Part shown: in pieces, positions 1,462 through 11,687 of the stretch | How the letters are laid out: each line of letters starts with the position of its first letter | Numbering within the stretch: the first letter of the stretch is position 1 | Notes under the pieces: generated by a model | Seen by the model: the letters and a program-made list of their open reading frames with translations, nothing else | The model's database searches: none | What the model was told of the DNA's origin: nothing | Source of the DNA: Chryseobacterium gleum | GTDB lineage: Bacteria; Bacteroidota; Bacteroidia; UBA10329 | Reading direction: 5' to 3' | Assembly: GCA_945903645.1 (NCBI GenBank) | Contig: CAMDOM010000016.1 | Location: 1-54,476, forward strand | Length of the DNA stretch: 54,476 nucleotides | Translations under genes and position numbers: made by a program

Positions 1462-3588
1462 ATGTTTCTTCGTTTGTTGCTTTGCGCCTTGGTGGCGCTG
1501 CCTTTCGGCTCGCTTGCTCAGTATAAACCCCAAAAAGACTACAAGCCTTCGGACATCAGCACGGTGTCGCCTGCGCCCTACAACCGAGGTTCCAAGCTAT
1601 ATAAGGGCTACAGCATGCAATCGTATTATGTAGAAATGCGCGATGGAGTGGCCATTGCCGTAGATGTGTATTTGCCCAAGGGCAAGGTGAAGGACCAGAA
1701 ATTCCCCACCGTATTGCACCAAACCCGCTATTGGAGAAGCATTGAGCTGAAATGGCCCTACCGTTGGTTTCGCAAGAATCCGATAGGGCCGCTGGGCGAT
1801 TTTATGATTCCCGTTATTCTGCAAGGCTATGCGGTGGTGGTGGTAGACTCGCGCGGAAGCGGTGCTTCGGGTGGGGTTAGTTTTCACCCATGGAACAAAG
1901 ACGAAGTGGCCGATATGACCGAAATTGTAGACCACATCATTGCCCAAAAATGGAGCAATGGCATAGTGGGAGGAGCAGGCGCATCGTATAGTGGCACCAC
2001 ATCAGAGTTTTTGACGACCTTAAAACACCCAGCCGTGAAGGCGGTGGTGAACATGAATTCGCTGTTTGATGTGTATGCCGACAACGCATTTACCGGAGGT
2101 ATGCACAACGCATGGTTTACGCGGGTTTGGGGCGAGGCCAACGAATCGTTGGATGCCAACCAACTGCCGGCCCATGCGGTGAAAGCCAAGAAGTTTATCA
2201 AAGGTGTGTTGCCCGTGAAGCCAGGATACAAGGGCGAAAGCGGTCGCGATTTTCTGAACAGAATGGTGGCCCAGCGCACCAACCGCAATGTGCACGAAGG
2301 TGCCCTCACCATTACCTACCGCGATGATGTGCCAGCCAACGGAGCGGCCGAAAGTGCTGACGAGTTTAGCCCCCACATGCGCTGGAAAGCCCAAGATGCA
2401 TCTAGTGCTGCCGTGTATAGCTGGAGCGGATGGTATGATGGCGCCTACCAAAATGCCGCCACCAAGCGCCACATGACCCTCGGCAATCCCAACAACCGCC
2501 TGCTATTGGGGCCGTGGGACCATAGCGGAAGCCGCAATTGTGGGCATACCAACCCTGGACCATCGGGTTTTGACCATCTTGGCGAGGTGTTGCGCTTTTT
2601 CGACCAGCATTTAAAAGGATGGGACACCGGCATCACCAAAGAGAAGCCCGTGCATTATTTCACCATGGTAGAAGAGAAATGGAAGGCATCTGATGTGTGG
2701 CCGCCCAAGGAAGCCAAGCCGCTAGCTGCCTACTTTGGCGCCAAGCATGGGTTGGATTGGAACAACGATTTTTCGCAGCAAGCCCAAATGAAAGCCGACC
2801 TGAAGTATTGGGGCGATTCGGTGAACGTGTTGAAAAGCAAAGGTGTGCAACGCATATTGGACGAAATGAAGGGCGAAGGCCGACTTACCGCTGCGCAAGA
2901 GCAGCAATTGGCCCACTACAAGGTGATAGAGTCCAACTTTAACGATGCTATTACCAAGCTAAACGCCATTGCGCCCAAGATTCGCGACCTGCGCGACAAT
3001 ACGCCTGCTTTCGATGTGTTGGCGGTAGACACCACCGCTACTACCGGCCAAGTGACCCGCTACGAGAGTGTGGCAGGACGGTTGAAAACCCCATTGGTAT
3101 ACCCAGACCGCGCCAGTTGCGACAGTGCCCTTTTGGTGTACGACAGCGCGGTGCTTGATGCCGATATGGAGGTAACGGGCCACCCCGAGGTGATGCTTTA
3201 CTTGGCATCTACCAGTAATGACGCCCAAGTGTTTATTTATTTGGAAGATGTGGCGCCCAATGGCGATGTGGAATACGTTACCGAGGGTGTGTTTCGAGCA
3301 CTGCACCGAAAAATAGGCACAGGCGAATTGCCTTACCAAATGGCCGAACCCTACCACACCTACCTCAAGGCCGATGCCATGCCCCTAGTGCCGGGCGAGG
3401 CGGTGGAGCTTAACTTTGGAATGCTGCCTGTGTCGTATCTCTTCAAAAAAGGACATCGGGTGCGCATCGCTATATCGGGTGCAGATGCAGAGCACTACCG
3501 CAACATGACCAAAGACCAACCTACCTACACGGTGCATCGGTCGTTTGCCATGCCAAGTAGGGTGGTGTTGCCGGTAGTGGGTCGTTAG
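1462..3588 (+). CDS. Secreted CocE/NonD family hydrolase (X-Pro dipeptidyl-peptidase S15 type)
   Basis: This is a serine hydrolase of the alpha/beta-hydrolase S15/CocE group, whose members cleave X-Pro dipeptides, esters or beta-lactam acyl groups; the substrate cannot be told from sequence. A signal peptide (residues 1-20, ending SLAQ) predicts export. The catalytic domain carries the nucleophile motif GASYSG with Ser175, the acid in SGWYDG (Asp326) and GPWDHSG with His354. The C-terminal part (about 530-708) is the jelly-roll X-Pro DPP C-terminal domain. Length (708 residues) fits the family. There is no T9SS domain, so it is probably periplasmic, unlike the larger relative at 47285-50404. 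The gene appears monocistronic. Family assignment is firm, exact activity open. Confidence 0.88.
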   Translation: MFLRLLLCALVALPFGSLAQYKPQKDYKPSDISTVSPAPYNRGSKLYKGYSMQSYYVEMRDGVAIAVDVYLPKGKVKDQKFPTVLHQTRYWRSIELKWPYRWFRKNPIGPLGDFMIPVILQGYAVVVVDSRGSGASGGVSFHPWNKDEVADMTEIVDHIIAQKWSNGIVGGAGASYSGTTSEFLTTLKHPAVKAVVNMNSLFDVYADNAFTGGMHNAWFTRVWGEANESLDANQLPAHAVKAKKFIKGVLPVKPGYKGESGRDFLNRMVAQRTNRNVHEGALTITYRDDVPANGAAESADEFSPHMRWKAQDASSAAVYSWSGWYDGAYQNAATKRHMTLGNPNNRLLLGPWDHSGSRNCGHTNPGPSGFDHLGEVLRFFDQHLKGWDTGITKEKPVHYFTMVEEKWKASDVWPPKEAKPLAAYFGAKHGLDWNNDFSQQAQMKADLKYWGDSVNVLKSKGVQRILDEMKGEGRLTAAQEQQLAHYKVIESNFNDAITKLNAIAPKIRDLRDNTPAFDVLAVDTTATTGQVTRYESVAGRLKTPLVYPDRASCDSALLVYDSAVLDADMEVTGHPEVMLYLASTSNDAQVFIYLEDVAPNGDVEYVTEGVFRALHRKIGTGELPYQMAEPYHTYLKADAMPLVPGEAVELNFGMLPVSYLFKKGHRVRIAISGADAEHYRNMTKDQPTYTVHRSFAMPSRVVLPVVGR

Positions 3589-3682
3589 GTTACTTTCACG
3601 CTTACAACCTCTAGTTCGGCTAAAATTTGTCAAAAAATAAACTACATTTATCATCAAATTGGACTAATGTTCCATCAACACA

Positions 3683-4705
3683 ATGAAACCAATCCTGCTC
3701 CTCACTATTCTTCTTTCCGCCATCTCCCTTACCGCTTCGGCCCAAAGTGCCTCCCTTGCGGGTAGCATACTGGCCCCAACGGGCGATAGCGTTTTTGTGC
3801 TCCTCAATCAAATGGTGGATGGCAGAATGAAAACCGACAAACTGGCCGCTGCCAAACTCGATAGCCAAGGCCAGTTTTCCATGAAGTTTTCTCTCGATAG
3901 CGCCAAACTGCTCTCCTTTTTTGATGGCTCCGAACGCAGCGATTTCTTCCTCCTACCGGGCGAGGCGCTTTCCCTTTCGCTCCACACCGCCTATTTTGAC
4001 GAAACCCTCACTTACAGCGGCCAAGGTGCCAACCGCAACAATACCCTAGCTGCACTTGCCTTGGCTGACGAGATGAACTGGATTCCAGTATATGCCCAAT
4101 GGGAAAACCCTGACACGGCTACCCTTTACCCCCAAATAGACGAATTCACCAAAAAGATAAGCGCCACCCTTCAAGACTACAGCCTTGCCTATCCCGAAAT
4201 GTCCGCCCACCTAACGGATATGATAGCCCAAAAGGAAGAAGCCGCCAATCAAACCAAAGACCAGTTTCGCGAAACAATCCAATTCAAAAAGCGAGCACAA
4301 GCCATGGTGGGCAAACCCATAGCAGACATTGCAGGTGTTGACCTCGAAGGCAAAAAAGTTAACCTATCTCAATTTAAAGGAAAAACAACGGTGGTAGATT
4401 TTTGGGCCACATGGTGCGGACCATGCAAAGCAGAAATGCCCTCGTGGGCCAAGTTGCAAGCCCAATATGGCAAAGACATCAACTTTGTGAGCATAGGAGT
4501 GTGGTGTAAAGAAGATGGCTGGAAAACAATGGCTAAAGAACTTGGCCTTGCCCACAACATCTATGTAAATAAAGAGGGCGAAGCTGCCCTTGCCCCCTAC
4601 GAAGTAAATTCTATACCGCGATATATGGTGATTGACAAAAACGGCAACATTGTTACCATCGATGCCCCACGTCCATCATCGCCAGATATGGTGAAGTTTT
4701 TCTAA
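3683..4705 (+). CDS. TlpA-like thiol-disulfide oxidoreductase with DUF4369-like N-terminus
   Basis: A signal peptide (about 1-21, ending ASAQ) is followed by an N-terminal region of the DUF4369 type (about 24-190) and a C-terminal TlpA/AhpC-TSA thioredoxin fold (about 205-335). The active-site motif is WCGPC with Cys245 and Cys248, preceded by VVDFWAT. Such proteins act in the periplasm or at the outer membrane as reductases for cytochrome c maturation or other disulfide exchange in Bacteroidota. The protein stops soon after the cis-Pro loop region (SIPRYMVID), so its last helix is shorter than usual. A strong hairpin terminator follows directly. No operon partner is visible. Confidence 0.87.
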   Translation: MKPILLLTILLSAISLTASAQSASLAGSILAPTGDSVFVLLNQMVDGRMKTDKLAAAKLDSQGQFSMKFSLDSAKLLSFFDGSERSDFFLLPGEALSLSLHTAYFDETLTYSGQGANRNNTLAALALADEMNWIPVYAQWENPDTATLYPQIDEFTKKISATLQDYSLAYPEMSAHLTDMIAQKEEAANQTKDQFRETIQFKKRAQAMVGKPIADIAGVDLEGKKVNLSQFKGKTTVVDFWATWCGPCKAEMPSWAKLQAQYGKDINFVSIGVWCKEDGWKTMAKELGLAHNIYVNKEGEAALAPYEVNSIPRYMVIDKNGNIVTIDAPRPSSPDMVKFF

Positions 4706-4730
4706 CATTTCTCAAAAGCACTACAGCATA

Positions 4731-4765
4731 GAAAGCCTCGCTACATCCGCGGGGCTTTCTTTTTT
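4731..4765 (+). terminator. Rho-independent terminator of the TlpA-like gene
   Basis: An 11-bp stem (4731-4741 with 4749-4759, one G-U pair, loop TACATCC) is followed by six T residues. It lies 25 bases after the stop codon. The T tract also provides the -33 element of the next promoter. Confidence 0.88.
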
Positions 4766-4794
4766 GCCGGACCTCATTTCGCCCCCTACCTTTG
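4763..4794 (+). promoter_or_regulatory. Bacteroidota-type promoter of the ABC ATPase
   Basis: TTTG (4763-4766), a 20-base spacer and TACCTTTG (4787-4794) give a near-perfect -33/-7 pair. Transcription should begin around 4800, only a few bases before the ATG at 4807, so the message is leaderless or nearly so. Confidence 0.75.
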
Positions 4795-4806
4795 TAGCCC
4801 ATCCTT

Positions 4807-5433
4807 ATGCTGCAAACTAACCAACTCCACTATTCCTACCCCAGCGGCCCAGCATTCGCCTTTCCCAATGTGGAGGTGAATAGGCAAGAGGTGCTCCTCG
4901 TTTTGGGTAAGTCGGGCAGCGGCAAAACCACCTTGCTGCACCTCTTGGCTGGACTCATGAAACCCACCCAGGGCATCATTTCGGTAGCAAACACCACTCT
5001 TTCCTCCCTTTCTGCCATGGGGTTAGATTCCTTTAGGGGCAGTCATATTGGCCTTGTGTTTCAGCAGCCGTTGTTTATTCGCTCGGTGAGTGTGTTGCAC
5101 AACTTGCAACTGGCCTGCACTCTCGCTGGCTTGCCTACTGATACCGACCGTGCCATGCAACTGCTCAGCGAACTGGGCATAGCCAACAAAGCCATTCAAC
5201 TTCCGCAATCGCTAAGCATTGGCGAACGCCAACGTGCCTCCATTGCCCGTGCGTTGATGGCCTCCCCTGGCCTTGTGCTAGCCGATGAGCCCACTTCGGC
5301 CTTAGACGATACAAATTGCCAGCGCGTGGCTCAATTGCTGCATACCACCGCCACCCGCCACAATGCCGCCCTTGTTATCGTTACCCACGACAGGCGCCTC
5401 AAAGACCAATTCACGAATACCTTGGAGCTATAA
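4807..5433 (+). CDS. ABC transporter ATP-binding protein, MacB/LolD type
   Basis: This is the nucleotide-binding subunit of a type VII (MacB/LolCDE-like) ABC system. Visible motifs are Walker A GKSGSGKTT (34-42), Q-loop VFQQPL, a signature in the variant form LSIGE (136-140), Walker B LVLADE (Asp160, Glu161) and the switch His194 in VTHD. The length of 208 residues is normal for the family. Its natural partner is the FtsX-type permease starting at 6931; the two are separated only by the Fic gene and about 330 bases of AT-rich DNA. The start is fixed by the promoter ending 12 bases upstream. The context (His-rich permease, DUF3299 proteins) suggests a metal-related exporter rather than lipoprotein release. 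Confidence 0.92.
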   Translation: MLQTNQLHYSYPSGPAFAFPNVEVNRQEVLLVLGKSGSGKTTLLHLLAGLMKPTQGIISVANTTLSSLSAMGLDSFRGSHIGLVFQQPLFIRSVSVLHNLQLACTLAGLPTDTDRAMQLLSELGIANKAIQLPQSLSIGERQRASIARALMASPGLVLADEPTSALDDTNCQRVAQLLHTTATRHNAALVIVTHDRRLKDQFTNTLEL

Positions 5434-5620
5434 TGTTCAATTCATCTGGCTCGGATGTAATCCCACATTTTGCACATAGGCCACATAAAAATTCACGTGT
5501 TGCACTACTAGTTGTTAAATGATAAAATCACCTTTTGTTAATTCTTTAAAGCACAATTGTTAATTGTTCGATATTACAATATGCTCTATAAGTGTTGATA
5601 AATAAAGAATTTAATGATAA

Positions 5621-5656
5621 ATTTGTTAAATCTTATTTTCAAGTTTGTTAAATCTT
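5621..5656. repeat. Two direct repeats upstream of the Fic gene
   Basis: The 13-mer TTTGTTAAATCTT occurs at 5622-5634 and 5644-5656, a spacing of 22 bp (two helical turns), ending 11 bases before the Fic start codon. Such phased repeats upstream of a gene whose product carries its own winged-helix tail could be an operator, but this is inference from position only. Confidence 0.4.
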
Positions 5657-5667
5657 TTTAGCTGCTA

Positions 5668-6837
5668 ATGCAAATGGTAGAGGCCCAATTTTCACATTTC
5701 GATTTGAAATTGATAGCGCCTTCTTTCGGGTCTACGCTCACCGATTTAATCATTGAATTGGACTATCTCCGCAAGAAACCACTTAGCGGGTCAACTCATC
5801 CAAAAGTCTTCTTTCAACTAAAACACATCTTTCATACCCTCGAAAGTATTGGGTCTGCACGCATTGAAGGCAACAACACCACCGTGGCCGAATACATTGA
5901 AACAAAACTTGAAGTTCCCACCCAAGTTTCGCCTAGCATAAAGGAAATTCAGAACATTGAAAAAGCGATGGTTTTCATCGAAGAGAATGTGAAGGATTAC
6001 CCCATCAACAGAGCATTTTTAAGTGAAATCCACAAAATGATTGTGGATGGATTAGTGCCACCACCTCATGGAGAAGGCGATGCAACTCCGGGAGAATACA
6101 GAAAAGCAAATCTGAAAATCAATAAGTCTACCCATATTCCACCCGATTGGTTGACGATAAAGGATTACATGACCGAGTTGCTCGACTTTATCAATAACGT
6201 AGACAGCCCGAAATACGATTTGCTCAAAGTAGCCATTGCTCATCACCGTTTTGTTTGGATTCACCCGTTTGGCAATGGCAATGGAAGAACGGTTCGTCTG
6301 TTCACCTATGCCATGCTGGTCAAAACAGGATTCAATGTAAATGTGGGTAGAATTATAAACCCAACCGCTGTGTTTTGCAGCAATCGCAATGATTACTACT
6401 ACAATTTATCTGAGGCGGACAAAGGCACTGATGAAGGAATAATGACGTGGATAACCTACGTTTTGACAGGCTTGAAAGAGGAAATAGAGAAAATTGATAA
6501 GCTGTTGGACTATGATTTTCTGCGAAAGGAAATTCTACTTCCCACCATTATCCATTCGTTAGAACAGAAATATATTACAACTATCGAAGCTAAAATTTTA
6601 CGTAAAGCGGTGGATATGCAGGTTATTCAAGCAGTTGATGTCAAAGAATATTTTGTAGGAAAAGCAGATGCCGAGGTTTCCCGACAAATCCGAAAGCTGA
6701 TTGATAAAAAAATGCTTGCTCCCGAAAAGGAAGGTGCGCGCAAATACGTTTTGCGGTTTGACAATAGCCATTTATTACGCAGTGTAATGAAGGCGTTAGG
6801 TGAAAAAGGTTTTCTTCCCGTTCTCGATGAATTTTGA
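5668..6837 (+). CDS. Fic family AMP-transferase with N-terminal inhibitory motif
   Basis: Fic enzymes transfer AMP (or another nucleotide part) to hydroxyl groups of target proteins. The catalytic motif HPFGNGNGRT starts at His199. A helix with the inhibitory pattern S/T-xxx-E-G/N is seen as SARIEG (Ser63 to Gly68), placing the protein in the self-inhibited class with the inhibitory helix N-terminal to the core. The C-terminal third (about 285-389) looks like a winged-helix DNA-binding region, as in many chromosomal Fic proteins. The gene has no toxin-antitoxin partner nearby. It is AT-rich compared with both neighbours and sits between an ABC ATPase and its permease, suggesting insertion into an existing operon. 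Confidence 0.9.
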   Translation: MQMVEAQFSHFDLKLIAPSFGSTLTDLIIELDYLRKKPLSGSTHPKVFFQLKHIFHTLESIGSARIEGNNTTVAEYIETKLEVPTQVSPSIKEIQNIEKAMVFIEENVKDYPINRAFLSEIHKMIVDGLVPPPHGEGDATPGEYRKANLKINKSTHIPPDWLTIKDYMTELLDFINNVDSPKYDLLKVAIAHHRFVWIHPFGNGNGRTVRLFTYAMLVKTGFNVNVGRIINPTAVFCSNRNDYYYNLSEADKGTDEGIMTWITYVLTGLKEEIEKIDKLLDYDFLRKEILLPTIIHSLEQKYITTIEAKILRKAVDMQVIQAVDVKEYFVGKADAEVSRQIRKLIDKKMLAPEKEGARKYVLRFDNSHLLRSVMKALGEKGFLPVLDEF

Positions 6838-6930
6838 TGTTCAGATAGCATTGGGATGGCGCACTTCTAGTGGCGAACTTCGCAGCATTCAAAGGTGTCA
6901 AATTGTGCCAATAAGCCGTTGTTTTCCATC

Positions 6931-8169
6931 ATGAACATGTTTCGCCTCAGTTGGGCCAATCTCAAGGTCGATAGCCTTTCTACTGCGTTAAGCATTATGC
7001 TGCTGGCCATTGGTGTGGGCATGGTAGCCTTTGTGCTGGTCATTAGTCAGCAGCTCAACGATAGGTTCAACCGCGATATTCGAGGAATAGATATGGTGGT
7101 GGGCGCCAAGGGCAGTCCGCTGCAATTGATTCTTTCGGCAGTGTACCAAATAGACAATCCTACGGGAAACATTCCCCTAAGCGAGGCTGAGAGGTTGCAA
7201 AAACATCCGTTGGTTAAATACAGCATTCCGTTGGCCTATGGCGATAGTTACCGCGGTTATCGCATTGTGGGCACTGAAGAAAAATACCTCAAGCACTATG
7301 ACGCCACCTTTGGCGATGGTTCAATTTGGACAACCGATTTTGAAGCCGTAGTGGGCAGCACCGTGGCCCAACAACTTGAGCTATCGCTTGGCAGTCACTT
7401 TCACGGCACCCACGGATTGGAGCAAGAAGGCCAAGCCCACGAAGAAATGGACTACCGTGTGGTGGGCACACTGAAGCCAACGGGTACGGTGATAGATAAA
7501 CTCATTCTTACCAACATCAGCAGCGTGTGGCACATTCATGGCGAAGCCAATCCTACGGAAGAAGAACACGCCCACCACGACCATAAACACGACACTGCCC
7601 ACCATCACGAATTGGAGGAAGACACCCGCGAAATAACTGCCCTTCTAGTTAAGTTTAAAAGCCCAATGGGCATGATGCAGCTGCCGCGCCACATCAACGC
7701 CAACACTACCATGCAAGCCGCTTTGCCCGCCATTGAGGTAAACCGGCTGTATGAATTACTGGGTGTGGGCTTCACCACCCTTCAAATAATAGGCGGCATC
7801 ATCATGTGCATTGCCGCTATCAGTGTGTTCATTTCCCTACTCAATTCCCTCAAAAACAGGAAATACGAATTGGCGTTGATGCGTTCGCTGGGTGCATCGC
7901 CTTCCAAGCTTTTCGCCATGGTAGTGCTCGAAAGCCTGCTCATTTGCAGCATGGGCTATACAGCAGGGATTGCCCTTGGGCGCCTGGGGCAGGTTATGAT
8001 GCAGCACTTTGGCGAGCAACAATTGCAAATGGGTGCTTCGCTACTCACATTCTCATATCAAGAACTGATGCTGTTGCCCATTACCTTGTTCATTGGCCTG
8101 ATTGCCGCGTTGATACCTGCCGTGCAAGCCTACCGAACCGATATTTCCAACGTGCTGCGCAATGAGTGA
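6931..8169 (+). CDS. FtsX/MacB-type ABC permease with His-rich periplasmic insert
   Basis: This is the membrane subunit matching the ATPase at 4807. Counted from ATG 6931 (MNMFRLSWANL; an ATG at 6937 is also possible, and the longer GTG frame from 6895 is less likely), one hydrophobic helix lies near 15-36. It is followed by a large MacB-type periplasmic domain and three C-terminal helices of the FtsX fold (about 275-305, 325-352, 372-395). Residues 213-227 read HAHHDHKHDTAHHHE, eight histidines in fifteen residues flanked by acids, a likely metal-binding loop. The stop overlaps the start of the DUF3299 gene by 8 bases, implying coupling. The combination resembles Zur-regulated MacB-like zinc operons of Pseudomonas, so a role in zinc handling is inferred, not shown. 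Confidence 0.88.
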   Translation: MNMFRLSWANLKVDSLSTALSIMLLAIGVGMVAFVLVISQQLNDRFNRDIRGIDMVVGAKGSPLQLILSAVYQIDNPTGNIPLSEAERLQKHPLVKYSIPLAYGDSYRGYRIVGTEEKYLKHYDATFGDGSIWTTDFEAVVGSTVAQQLELSLGSHFHGTHGLEQEGQAHEEMDYRVVGTLKPTGTVIDKLILTNISSVWHIHGEANPTEEEHAHHDHKHDTAHHHELEEDTREITALLVKFKSPMGMMQLPRHINANTTMQAALPAIEVNRLYELLGVGFTTLQIIGGIIMCIAAISVFISLLNSLKNRKYELALMRSLGASPSKLFAMVVLESLLICSMGYTAGIALGRLGQVMMQHFGEQQLQMGASLLTFSYQELMLLPITLFIGLIAALIPAVQAYRTDISNVLRNE

Positions 8170-8674
8170 GCCATTGGAAAATTGCATCCAACAAGTAAGC
8201 GAAAGAAGAAAAAGAGGTGTCCACACATTCCTTCAATTCATCATTCGTAATTCATCATTCGTAATTCTATTAGTTCCCGCACTTTCCTTTGCCCAGAACC
8301 GCACCATCGACTGGAAACTGCTCTCCAAGGTGGAATGGAGCGAGAAATATTCGAAAGAACATGACGAAACGTTTTACTACCCAAAGTTTGCCCCAGAGGT
8401 GCTCAACCTCAATGGACAGCTAATCGAAATCGAAGGTTTCGTAATTCCTGTGGATGTGGAAACGGGCTATTTTGTCCTTTCGGCCAATCCATTTGCCAGT
8501 TGTTTCTTTTGCGGACAGGCAGGCCCCGAAACCATACTCGAACTGCAATTGAAGGCAGGAGGAAAACGCTTTAAGACCGATGAAGTGGTTACCTTTCGAG
8601 GCCGTCTCAAACTGAACTACGAAGATTTGATGCACTGTAACTACATACTCGAACTTGCCCAACCAGTGAAATGA
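8162..8674 (+). CDS. DUF3299 secreted protein, first copy
   Basis: This is a small exported DUF3299 protein. The conserved core runs from about residue 64 (PKFAPEV) through VIPVD to SANPFASCFFCG with Cys114 and Cys117, then GPE. The FFCG cysteine pair suggests metal binding or a disulfide. The first 45 residues form an odd signal peptide whose hydrophobic stretch is encoded by a 14-bp tandem repeat (8237-8264). The start at 8162 overlaps the permease stop. The stop overlaps the next ATG in the form ATGA, so permease, this gene and its paralogue are translationally coupled. Biochemical function of the family is not established. Confidence 0.82.
   Translation: MSEPLENCIQQVSERRKRGVHTFLQFIIRNSSFVILLVPALSFAQNRTIDWKLLSKVEWSEKYSKEHDETFYYPKFAPEVLNLNGQLIEIEGFVIPVDVETGYFVLSANPFASCFFCGQAGPETILELQLKAGGKRFKTDEVVTFRGRLKLNYEDLMHCNYILELAQPVK
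8237..8264. repeat. 14-bp perfect tandem repeat inside a signal-peptide region
   Basis: TTCATCATTCGTAA is repeated back to back (8237-8250, 8251-8264) and a third partial copy follows. Because 14 is not a multiple of three, the copies are read in different frames (FIIRNSSFVI). Similar short ATTCGTAA-type runs are common between genes in Bacteroidota, so this may be an intergenic repeat captured into the reading frame. Confidence 0.7.
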
Positions 8675-9111
8675 GAGTGCTGCTCACTATCCTATTTGCA
8701 TTCACCTTGCAAGGCGCTAGTGCCCAACGTATGATAGAATGGAGCACATTGGCAAACGTGAAGTTTACCCGCGAATTCTCGAAGCAATTTGGATTTGAGG
8801 TGAATGTGAAACCGCCAAAATTTGCCCCAGAAATACTTGCTATCCACGGTCAAACCGTGAAAGTGCGCGGCTACGTTATTCCCATCGACATGGAATTGGG
8901 GCTGTATATGGTATCGGCCAATCCGTTTGCCAACTGCTTTTTTTGCGGTGGCGCTGGCCCCGAAACTGTGGTAGAACTATTCGCTGCCGAACGATTCCCA
9001 CGCTTCAATACCGACCAAGTAGTCACATTCACAGGTAAATTTCAAGTGAGCCAAGGCGGTGAAATGAATGGTGTGCCCTATCAGCTTTTTCAGGCCAGAG
9101 TGGCGAAATAA
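8671..9111 (+). CDS. DUF3299 secreted protein, second copy
   Basis: This is a paralogue of the preceding gene with a normal signal peptide (about 1-18, ending ASAQ). It keeps PKFAPEI, VIPID and SANPFANCFFCG with Cys89 and Cys92, and ends with a beta-rich tail. The two copies align along their whole core, so they arose by tandem duplication or one was recruited next to the other. The ATG overlaps the upstream TGA. Having two DUF3299 proteins behind one permease suggests distinct partners or a hetero-oligomer; this is inference. Confidence 0.82.
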   Translation: MRVLLTILFAFTLQGASAQRMIEWSTLANVKFTREFSKQFGFEVNVKPPKFAPEILAIHGQTVKVRGYVIPIDMELGLYMVSANPFANCFFCGGAGPETVVELFAAERFPRFNTDQVVTFTGKFQVSQGGEMNGVPYQLFQARVAK

Positions 9112-9127
9112 ACGAATCTCACCCCTC

Positions 9128-9649
9128 ATGGTCAAAGTATTTCCCCTCCTTTTCCTCCCGTTCATCTCGTTTGCGCAGCACACGCTTATTATGAAAGATG
9201 GCACCTTCATTTCGGGCGAATTGCAAAGCATGAAGGGAAATACCATCAGTTTTTTCGCTGCCGAACGGCCCTTGGATATTGACATCTCTACCGTGAGCAC
9301 CATTCATTTCTATGATACCCAAAAGAAAGAGCCCGTAGCAGTTTCTACTGTCAAAAAAATGTTCAATAGTGGATTCGACCGCATAGAATACAGCATGGAC
9401 GGGCGCAACATGATTAAGTTCCCCAAGATTACCATTGGAAACGATGCCAAAGGAATTGTGGTGGTTGATGTGACCATCGACAAATATGGCAACGTAATGA
9501 GTGCCGAACCTGGAGCAGCTGGCTCCAAAACCACAGACGATAAATACTTGTTTTATAAAGCAAAATTTGCCTGTCAAGAGGCCAAATTCGATACCTATCC
9601 CACAGCACCGCTTTCCACCTCAGGAAAGGTCTTTGTGGTGTTCAAGTAG
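9128..9649 (+). CDS. Secreted protein with C-terminal TonB-C-like domain
   Basis: ATG 9128 is preferred over the upstream TTG frame start because it opens a clean signal peptide (MVKVFPLLFLPFISFAQ). Residues about 20-60 contain a small beta-rich unit (KDGTFISGELQSMKGN). The C-terminal 75 residues (VVVDVTIDKYGNVMSAEPG onward) resemble the TonB C-terminal energy-transducer fold seen in many Bacteroidota proteins. The N-terminus is a cleavable signal, not a TonB membrane anchor. It lies 16 bases after the second DUF3299 gene and is probably the last gene of the exporter operon. Confidence 0.65.
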   Translation: MVKVFPLLFLPFISFAQHTLIMKDGTFISGELQSMKGNTISFFAAERPLDIDISTVSTIHFYDTQKKEPVAVSTVKKMFNSGFDRIEYSMDGRNMIKFPKITIGNDAKGIVVVDVTIDKYGNVMSAEPGAAGSKTTDDKYLFYKAKFACQEAKFDTYPTAPLSTSGKVFVVFK

Positions 9650-9712
9650 CCTTAAGGGTATAAAAAAAACCTCAATTTCTTGAAAGGCTTTTTACTACAT
9701 CCTATGTGCTGA

Positions 9713-10534
9713 TTACATTTTTGTTTTGTTCAAGTCCAGTTTAAACTCCGCCTTGTCGAACGTAAAGGATGTTTTTGAAACTTCTTGGAAAGCTTCGCCA
9801 AACGACACAAAAAGCGTGGCGAATTGCATGTCTACAACATTTGCAGGAATTCTTACCATCACAGAAAATCCATCTTCCTCACCCGGCATTATCAAAACGG
9901 GATTCACTTTCGAAAATGCATTGGCAAACATTCTGCCCGATTCTATTTTGACTCCCACTTTACTTGGGTCCACAATAGCAATTTTACTACCCGTGTATTT
10001 CACGACAAATCTTGCATTAGTGGCATCTGTCTCTTGATTATGGTACTTCAGGTTCAGGCTAAACGGACCTGAACTCATCGAATTCTGTGAAGGAGGTAAC
10101 ACAAAATCATCCAACTCAAAAGCCACTCCTTTGGTAGATGCTTTTTCCAAACCATCAAAGGTTATCGAGAATGTTTCTTGATGATAATCGGTTTGACCAG
10201 CCAAATCAAGAACCCTTGTTTTGTCAGAAAACGGCTCAATGATAAAAGGCTTTTCTTTGAACGGATAGGACTGCCCATTTACATTCAACCTCATTTTGCT
10301 TGGATTTACAAATACATACTCGTTCGTTTTATTGGTGAACTTTATTCGGAATTTGAGTAAATCTTTCTGAGAAACGGCATCCTTAACCTCAACCTTCAAA
10401 AAATCATTCTCCATTTCCGCATTCTGGTACCAGAATTCGTGCTTATTAGAATATTTTTTTTGGTCTTGCGCAAATGTGTTCAATGTGGATAGACCAATTA
10501 AGGCAACTACCGCGCCCATTATTACGTGTTTCAT
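9713..10534 (-). CDS. Secreted hypothetical protein
   Basis: No family was recognised. A signal peptide (about 1-22, ending NTFAQ) is followed by about 250 residues alternating short beta-like segments (FRIKFTNKTNEYVFVNP, LNVNGQSYPF), suggesting two beta-sandwich units, each comparable to an accessory domain. No lipobox, T9SS domain or transmembrane helix is seen. It is transcribed towards the exporter operon and is separated from it by 63 bases with no clear terminator. Confidence 0.7.
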   Translation of the reverse strand: MKHVIMGAVVALIGLSTLNTFAQDQKKYSNKHEFWYQNAEMENDFLKVEVKDAVSQKDLLKFRIKFTNKTNEYVFVNPSKMRLNVNGQSYPFKEKPFIIEPFSDKTRVLDLAGQTDYHQETFSITFDGLEKASTKGVAFELDDFVLPPSQNSMSSGPFSLNLKYHNQETDATNARFVVKYTGSKIAIVDPSKVGVKIESGRMFANAFSKVNPVLIMPGEEDGFSVMVRIPANVVDMQFATLFVSFGEAFQEVSKTSFTFDKAEFKLDLNKTKM

Positions 10535-10583
10535 ATTCGTTTAAGGATTTGGTTAATGGGATTGAGGTTACAATTAACGCTTC

Positions 10584-10591
10584 CAAAAATA
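10584..10591 (-). promoter_or_regulatory. -7 box for the secreted hypothetical
   Basis: On the minus strand the sequence reads TATTTTTG, fitting TAnnTTTG, 49 bases upstream of the start codon at 10534. Confidence 0.45.
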
Positions 10592-10643
10592 GAACAAGGA
10601 ATTAAAACTGTGAAAATGGAATACGTGGCCTAGTCCTTTGGCC

Positions 10644-10686
10644 TTCTTCGCGAAGAACCAACAAATGGTTCATTCTGGTACTTTTG
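10644..10686 (+). promoter_or_regulatory. Palindrome and -7 box upstream of the DUF4476 gene
   Basis: A perfect 14-bp palindrome TTCTTCGCGAAGAA (10644-10657) is followed 21 bases later by TACTTTTG (10679-10686), a good -7 box. The palindrome sits where a -33 element or an operator would be expected. The coding start at 10761 leaves a 74-base leader. Confidence 0.4.
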
Positions 10687-10760
10687 AAAGTTCAATATAT
10701 AAGCATATCCATTCTGATTTTTTCAGTTTGGTCTTACATAAATACATTCTTCAAAAAACC

Positions 10761-11687
10761 ATGAAACTATTGTTTTTTATATCTGCCATGCTAGGCATAA
10801 CAACCATGACATCCGCACAGTCCAATCATTTTACCGTGTTTTCCGAAGAAGGATTTCCCTTCTATCTCATAGTGAATGGCATAGCCCAGAATACCGAACC
10901 AGAAACCAGTGTTAAGGTGCTTGACCTTGGGGCTCAAAACTTGAAGCTCAAGTTCATCTTTAATGATAAGTCACTTGGCGAGGTAGATAAAACTGCTTAC
11001 CTCAACACTTTTGGTAGAGAATATATGTACAAAGTGAAAAGAAGTGCTTCGGGCGATTGGGTGCTTAAACTTGAAAACTCCGTTCCCATAGCTGGTTTAA
11101 TGCCCCAACCAGCGGTGGTGCAACAAACCACTTTGGTGCAGCAAGGACCAAACGTTACTACCACAACTAACGGTACTTATTTCAATTCCTCAAGCACCAG
11201 CACTTCAAGTTCATTTGCCACTAATGCTGTTGGAGGTATAAGCGTTAATGTTAGCGGAATGGGGATGAACCCAAATCTGCCTGCTGGTCAAGATGTATCA
11301 ATTGCTATGAATACCTTTCAGGCAGTTAACGACCATTATACACCTCCAGCACCAACCCATTATGTAATGGTGGGCTATAATGGACCCATCGGTTGTACGT
11401 GGCCTATGGACGATGCCCAATTTGCCACTGCGCGCCAATCTGTGGCTTCAAACGCATGGGACGAAACCAAACTCACCGTTTCTAAGCAAATTATTAGCGC
11501 CAATTGCCTCACTTGCGCGCAAGTAAAAGTGTTGATGCAATTGATGGGCTGGGAAGAATCGAAACTTGACCTTGCCAAATTTGCCTACAAATACACCTAC
11601 GATTTGGGCAACTATTACCAATTGAATGGCGCGTTTGAGTGGGAATCGAGCACCACGGAGCTCAATGCACACATCAACGGGCAATAG
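10761..11687 (+). CDS. Secreted DUF4476 domain protein
   Basis: ATG 10761 is chosen over the longer frame from 10638 because it opens a signal peptide (MKLLFFISAMLG, cleaved near TSAQ) and leaves the promoter untranslated. The N-terminal part (about 22-110) is beta-rich. A low-complexity Ser/Thr/Asn linker (about 120-160) follows. The last 95 residues are a DUF4476 domain, an all-helical unit with SANCLTCAQVKVLM and YTYDLGNYYQLNGAF. DUF4476 is frequent in Bacteroidota exported proteins and has no established function. The stop lies one base from the stop of the convergent GluQ-type gene. Confidence 0.8.
   Translation: MKLLFFISAMLGITTMTSAQSNHFTVFSEEGFPFYLIVNGIAQNTEPETSVKVLDLGAQNLKLKFIFNDKSLGEVDKTAYLNTFGREYMYKVKRSASGDWVLKLENSVPIAGLMPQPAVVQQTTLVQQGPNVTTTTNGTYFNSSSTSTSSSFATNAVGGISVNVSGMGMNPNLPAGQDVSIAMNTFQAVNDHYTPPAPTHYVMVGYNGPIGCTWPMDDAQFATARQSVASNAWDETKLTVSKQIISANCLTCAQVKVLMQLMGWEESKLDLAKFAYKYTYDLGNYYQLNGAFEWESSTTELNAHINGQ

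Follow-up and report, generated by a model that had tools for sequence, protein, structure and literature searches.

A probable ZrgA-less relative of the Zrg/PA4063-PA4066 zinc-scarcity system in Chryseobacterium gleum and other Bacteroidota

What does a small set of transport genes do near one end of contig CAMDOM010000016.1 of Chryseobacterium gleum? The window, i.e., the whole stretch of DNA analysed, comprises 54,476 nucleotides. It holds an ATP-binding cassette (ABC) ATPase, an FtsX/MacB-type permease with a His-rich loop and two DUF3299-like secreted proteins, called a and b here, all encoded on one strand (Table 1). The original prediction, made from the letters alone, had seen in them a zinc-type MacB-like exporter operon. 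Our analysis indicates that these genes probably encode a relative of the Zrg/PA4063-PA4066 zinc-scarcity system, in a Bacteroidota form without ZrgA. The studied Zrg relatives are repressed by Zur and induced by zinc starvation (PMC9817125, PMC11481552). Work in Vibrio argues that Zrg takes up zinc (PMC9817125, PMC9820375), and work in Pseudomonas that PA4064/65 exports cobalt-pyochelin (PMC11481552).

Composition and spread of the gene set

The grouping of ATPase, permease and DUF3299-like genes goes far beyond chance. We surveyed 114 loci that carry a permease relative, 80 of them picked by the permease alone, and an evenly drawn sample of 296 Bacteroidota genomes, in 36 of which DUF3299-like relatives were found. 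The ATPase gene lies at most 50 bp from the permease gene in 92/114 loci, and a DUF3299-like gene is located within 200 bp in 99/114. Among the permease-picked loci, the DUF3299-like gene is found downstream in 68/80. Absence of co-occurrence in other Bacteroidota had been named beforehand as one of the observations that would speak against the operon; the neighbourhood survey shows that co-occurrence is widespread.

The set recurs as part of a larger island, in which a CobW gene on the opposite strand is followed by MerC, ATPase, permease, one to three DUF3299 genes and a FUR gene, all reading in one direction. CobW was found at 22 loci, MerC at 20 and FUR at 19, with a small FUR gene directly 3' of DUF3299 in many Pedobacter. 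Because genomes of 3-6.6 Mb hold only 1-6 FUR genes, FUR at 19 of the 114 loci is far above chance (<1 expected). The nearest named relative of the operon is locus L089, with a permease identity of 65%. Two-component sensor genes (a hybrid kinase with a Y_Y_Y domain, a response-regulator kinase) directly precede the ATPase gene at some loci, Algoriphagus included (L048, L050, L055, L074).

The predicted ATPase and the permease with its His-rich loop are borne out by the Pfam matches and the sequence. The best NCBIfam model for the ATPase is LolD, with a score under the LolD equivalog cut-off, and the protein is 75% identical to the ATPase of sibling locus L169, whose gene overlaps that of its permease (siblings are genomes of the same genus). 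The permease has the features of the FtsX/MacB-type (type VII) proteins, namely an FtsX C-terminal domain, a MacB_PCD periplasmic domain and four transmembrane segments (TM); its start is more likely ATG 6931 than GTG 6895. Its AlphaFold model (mean predicted local distance difference test score, pLDDT, 86.5) aligned with VIA-align to MacB, LolE and a non-canonical ABC transporter at Z 20-26 (MacB 20.5, LolE 22.5).

Table 1. Features of the operon and of the apparent insertion; positions are those of the window
Feature	Position	Strand	Basis
ABC ATPase, 208 aa, LolD/FtsE/MacB nucleotide-binding-domain type, ZrgC-like	4807..5433	+	Pfam ABC_tran PF00005, E 3e-29
Apparent inserted segment, ~1.5 kb (leader of 28% GC, then Fic), breaking the ATPase/permease junction	5432..6930	+	Junction comparison, GC
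Fic/DOC-family protein, 389 aa, carried by the insertion, outside the transport operon	5668..6837	+	Pfam Fic, E 1.5e-18; phrog_5978, E 4e-71
FtsX/MacB-type permease, ZrgB/PA4065-like	6931..8169	+	Pfam PF02687 FtsX and PF12704 MacB_PCD, both above cut-off
First invariant periplasmic histidine, H161 (counted from ATG 6931)	7411..7413	+	Alignment
Second invariant histidine, H170	7438..7440	+	Alignment
Third invariant histidine, H203, immediately preceding the His-rich loop	7537..7539	+	Alignment
His/Asp/Glu-rich permease loop, GEANPTEEEHAHHDHKHDTAHHHELEED	7540..7623	+	Sequence; predicted disordered
DUF3299-like secreted protein a, CFFC motif 8501-8512, start codon uncertain	8162..8674	+	
DUF3299-like secreted protein b, CFFC motif 8935-8946	8671..9111	+	

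Permease histidines, ZrgA and the DUF3299-like proteins

Three histidines of the permease (H161, H170 and H203) are invariant across the Bacteroidota, Pseudomonadota (P. aeruginosa included) and Deinococcota rows of our alignment, and in 41/41 rows of a further one. They are missing from other, unrelated FtsX permeases of the same genome. Their placement in the predicted periplasmic domain suggests a putative metal site. The His-rich loop that follows has pLDDT values <50 at model residues 206-227, and at least three loop histidines are present in 98/104 Bacteroidota permeases. Histidines built into the permease had been proposed as what sets this locus apart; they are present but not peculiar to it, being found in most Bacteroidota permeases and also in Ruegeria, Paracoccus and Rhizobium.

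These histidines bear on the question of whether the operon encodes a general MacB/LolCDE-like exporter of lipoproteins, peptides or antibiotics, with no role in metal handling and an incidental His-rich loop. MacB (of MacAB-TolC) and LolCDE share the permease fold and the ATPase class with the window proteins, structural comparison ranks LolE, MacB and non-canonical exporters highest, LolD is the top ATPase model, and a Ruegeria relative adjoins a biotin/lipoyl-binding (MacA-like) protein. However, MacB is a single chain fused to its ATPase, whereas ATPase and permease are separate genes in the window and in the siblings, and no MacA-like open reading frame (ORF) was found at 1462-11687 in the ORF list or by Pfam. 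The invariant histidines, the frequent loop and the linkage to CobW, FUR and MerC, with the common box described below, also speak against such an exporter, which we consider unlikely. Even less probable is heme export in the manner of HrtBA. HrtB does appear in the structural comparison (Z 19.7), and in several siblings (L170-L174) hemB (ALAD) is divergent from the operon, often across a short shared intergenic stretch. LolE and MacB match equally well or better, though, the hemB linkage is limited to the genus, and the box regulon does not look related to heme.

The comparison with known systems points to the Zrg relatives instead. In ZrgABCDE of V. cholerae and V. parahaemolyticus, the ATPase corresponds to ZrgC, the MacB-like 4-TM permease to ZrgB and the DUF3299 periplasmic protein to ZrgE, in a context of zinc scarcity (PMC9817125, PMC9820375). 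The window locus differs by the absence of ZrgA (DUF2796, the family now named 'ZrgA' in Pfam), by its His-rich permease loop and by DUF3299 relatives that are duplicated genus-wide and carry CxxC instead of C-x-H-x-PPP. PA4063-PA4066 shares the split MacB of the PA4064/65 type, the PA4066 fold and the order ATPase-permease-DUF3299; the His-rich DUF2796 protein PA4063 is absent from the window locus, where no pyochelin-type partner is known. As for ZrgD (DUF2607), the P. aeruginosa relatives lack it, and no search aimed at ZrgD was made in the window. The permease shares 28-30% identity with relatives from P. aeruginosa and Aeromonas (tblastn against plasmids), and this homology, together with the fold match to PA4066 described below, upholds the analogy with PA4063-PA4066 drawn in the original prediction. 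The name zrm given there was wrong: zrm, or zrmABCD, is the pseudopaline operon (PMC8561739), and the system is of the zrg type. ZepA was considered as a precedent among zinc systems and rejected, its genes being unrelated. No literature on DUF3299 or Zrg in Bacteroidota was found among the papers searched.

Several searches failed to detect ZrgA. The Pfam ZrgA model (PF10986) gave no match over its cut-off in any of the 296 Bacteroidota genomes, a result of unproven sensitivity since no control genome matched either. BLAST searches of the related loci with two DUF2796 proteins as queries gave no match, and the ORF list and Pfam revealed no ZrgA-like ORF at the window's locus. In the tblastn search, the P. 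aeruginosa and Phaeobacter relatives were ordered DUF2796-ATPase-permease-DUF3299, with the Phaeobacter set adjoining a Fur-family gene. On a Pseudooceanicola algae plasmid (L242), the row consists of two GTP-binding proteins, DUF1826, DUF2796 (ZrgA), ATPase, permease and two DUF3299. In these three (P. aeruginosa, Phaeobacter and Pseudooceanicola), ZrgA is present and the permease has no His-rich loop; in Ruegeria, Paracoccus and Rhizobium, ZrgA is missing from the stretch seen and the permease has the loop. Catenovulum, Deinococcus and Thermus have neither. An exchange of ZrgA for the loop may underlie this pattern, which is drawn from few cases.

Ruegeria, Paracoccus, Rhizobium, Deinococcus and Thermus have an ATPase-permease pair with the same three histidines, and small CxxC proteins adjoining it. 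They differ from the window in what else lies beside the transporter, namely the lipoyl-domain protein in Ruegeria and an alkaline phosphatase gene in the other four. In the latter (L184, L243-L245), a small CPFC protein annotated as 'hypothetical' resembles the DUF3299-like family. No mention of a permease, MacB, DUF or alkaline phosphatase was found in a zinc RNA-seq paper on Paracoccus.

The assignment of proteins a and b to DUF3299 is remote but sound, as judged from profiles and models. Both are under the Pfam cut-off (protein a, E 0.099; protein b, no score), and other members of their BLAST family score above it. The predicted label of two DUF3299 proteins was thus right, if remote. A profile of 21 family members finds 4hsp, the crystal structure of PA4066, at E 0.0021. 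Protein a was modelled by AlphaFold as an oligonucleotide/oligosaccharide-binding (OB) fold, with a mean pLDDT of 85; 4hsp was the sole PDB match of this model with E <0.001 and ranked top in VIA-align (Z 9.5, root-mean-square deviation 3.0, 109 residues). Because the other rows, OB folds too, score only slightly lower, the fold match is supportive and not decisive alone. The Pfam DUF3299 model gave no match in the window's own genome, with the controls silent too, and this search was not used as evidence of absence.

The two proteins are tandem homologs (45% identity) with N-termini that resemble signal peptides, and their genes share a few bases. The first cysteine is invariant in all compared members, PA4066-type proteins included. 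CxxC (CFFC, CYFC and similar) is present in 84/85 DUF3299-like proteins of Bacteroidota, where Pseudomonadota have C-x-H-x-PPP. The duplication is older than the genus because the a/b pair is present in 7/7 sibling genomes with the operon and because the a and b copies form two genus-wide groups in a tree. Other lineages have two to four copies, and Pseudooceanicola has two. The tandem pair is therefore real, but the earlier idea that it distinguishes the locus had to be dropped, and a duplication unique to the window was rejected.

Operator-like boxes, the Fic insertion and control of the operon

A palindrome search upstream of the operons led to TGCAA-N5-TTGCA. The exact box occurs in 13/103 operon upstream regions, compared with 0.14% of shuffles and 1% of random pieces of the same loci, and several loci have two copies ~38 bp apart. 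As the same regions had been used both to derive the box and to score it, a whole-genome count served as an independent test. In six whole genomes, TGCAAYNNNRTTGCA was found 2-7 times each; the reverse-read control was found 0 times in five and 2 times in one. Box copies precede CobW/COG0523, small FUR, MerC and TonB-dependent receptor genes, and further copies adjoin unrelated genes. In sibling G302 (L240), a box lies before a DUF4625-like gene with a small FUR gene just behind; a DUF4625-type gene also follows a TGCAA-N5-TTGCA box at L214. The box differs from the Vibrio Zur site given in PMC9817125.

COG0523 proteins are known companions of Zur regulons (PMC2770081). Because of this association, and of the box shared with CobW, small FUR, MerC and TonB-receptor genes, the sequence evidence in other Bacteroidota points to a Zur-like regulon and hence to zinc scarcity, with the FUR proteins as candidate Zur repressors. 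A pump removing excess zinc, cobalt or mercury would fit the MerC neighbours, the MacB-like export logic and the cobalt accumulation of a PA4065 mutant (PMC11481552). We think such detoxification improbable: COG0523 and TonB receptors, which share the box, usually accompany zinc scarcity, not excess, and zinc limitation induces those relatives that have been studied by experiment, as cited above.

In the window, the operon is interrupted by a Fic gene. Sibling genomes with sequence spanning the junction have no Fic there, and their ATPase and permease genes overlap by 4 bases; in the closest sibling the intact junction reads GGAGCTATGAACATG. Both flanks of the junction are kept in the window, one up to 5431 and the other from ~6930, with ~1.5 kb between them. 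The guanine-cytosine (GC) content is 28% in the leader and 41% in the Fic gene, compared with 51-55% in the neighbours, and phrog_5978, the family that the Fic protein matches, is a phage-protein family. Judged from the sibling junctions, the Fic segment is an insertion into the operon; an assembly join may be its origin instead. Among the genomes examined it is seen in the window genome only, and none of the 114 related loci has Fic between ATPase and permease, so Fic was rejected as an operon partner. In its motif, HPFGNGNGRTVR, Asn occupies a position at which Asp or Glu is usual in Fic motifs, and the stretch SARIEGN, further upstream, resembles the Fic inhibitory motif.

The gene that follows, predicted to encode a TonB-C protein, is not an operon member, since in six sibling genomes the orthologous gene is found on a different contig from the operon; it was rejected as a partner. 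No TonB_C domain was matched in its product (likely 9128-9649) by Pfam or NCBIfam; the C-terminal half resembles the C-terminus of ~280-residue proteins. The original prediction had described the ATPase, permease, DUF3299 and TonB-C genes as one co-directional, partly overlapping set. This description holds for the overlap of a and b; it skipped the complete Fic gene, and the supposed TonB-C gene probably starts 16 bases past the preceding stop. Directly 5' of the operon, a TlpA/ResA-like thiol-disulfide protein is encoded at 3683-4705; the siblings showed no equivalent gene at this place.

Several observations weigh against zinc control of the operon, above all in this genome. No box within 2 mismatches was found at the operon of the window or of the siblings, and the closest site in the window has 3 mismatches. 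A single FUR gene was recovered from the window genome, and it belongs to the larger type, not the small one; a CobW search of this genome gave no hit. For these reasons the window's own case is weaker, its zinc control being argued by homology alone. Elsewhere, the exact box is missing in 90/103 upstream regions, and TonB receptors, MerC and COG0523 could be compatible with another metal. Since the Fic insertion splits the operon, its expression in this genome may be changed, and the insertion may have inactivated or uncoupled this copy. The zinc link drawn beforehand is thus backed by operator-like boxes and by CobW/FUR/MerC neighbours in other Bacteroidota, and it lacks an operator at the window's own operon.

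These observations could also mean that the operon is a broken or rewired relic, with Fic separating the ATPase from permease and DUF3299 and Zur-like control lost in the genus. An insertion confined to this genome and the missing box, small FUR and CobW would agree with this. Yet all reading frames of the operon are intact and the insertion sits exactly between genes. Siblings free of the insertion also have no box, so the regulatory difference is older than the Fic insertion. We regard a relic as rather unlikely.

Proposed mechanism and significance

A ZrgA-less relative of Zrg could work as follows. When zinc is scarce, a Zur-like repressor would release the operon. The permease loop and the conserved histidines would then bind zinc, or a zinc/metallophore complex, in the periplasm, a task for which other Zrg systems have ZrgA as a protein of its own. 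Cytoplasmic ATP hydrolysis would move the periplasmic domain and pass the metal on by the kind of mechanotransmission known from MacB and LolCDE, and the DUF3299 proteins would act as periplasmic partners. The net effect would be either to take the metal up, in line with the Vibrio Zrg proposal, or to send a metal-metallophore complex out, in line with that for PA4064/65.

In its broader form, to which we give about even chances, the proposal is that Bacteroidota and some Alphaproteobacteria run a self-contained Zrg. Histidines would have shifted from ZrgA to the permease and DUF3299 would have gained its CxxC; in several lineages the operon would be under a Zur-like FUR through a TGCAAY-N3-RTTGCA box common to COG0523, MerC and TonB receptors.

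How Bacteroidota handle zinc scarcity is poorly known, and according to a 2025 review the mechanisms of zinc uptake and export in gut commensals are still to be elucidated (PMC12574912). The module described here puts names to a set of genes and offers candidates for their operator and regulator. It bears on the roles of the DUF3299 protein and of the MacB-like permease, a question of the Zrg field. ZrgA is critical in Vibrio cholerae, and if whole clades without ZrgA carry the histidines in their permease, the module may also bear on why Vibrio needs it.

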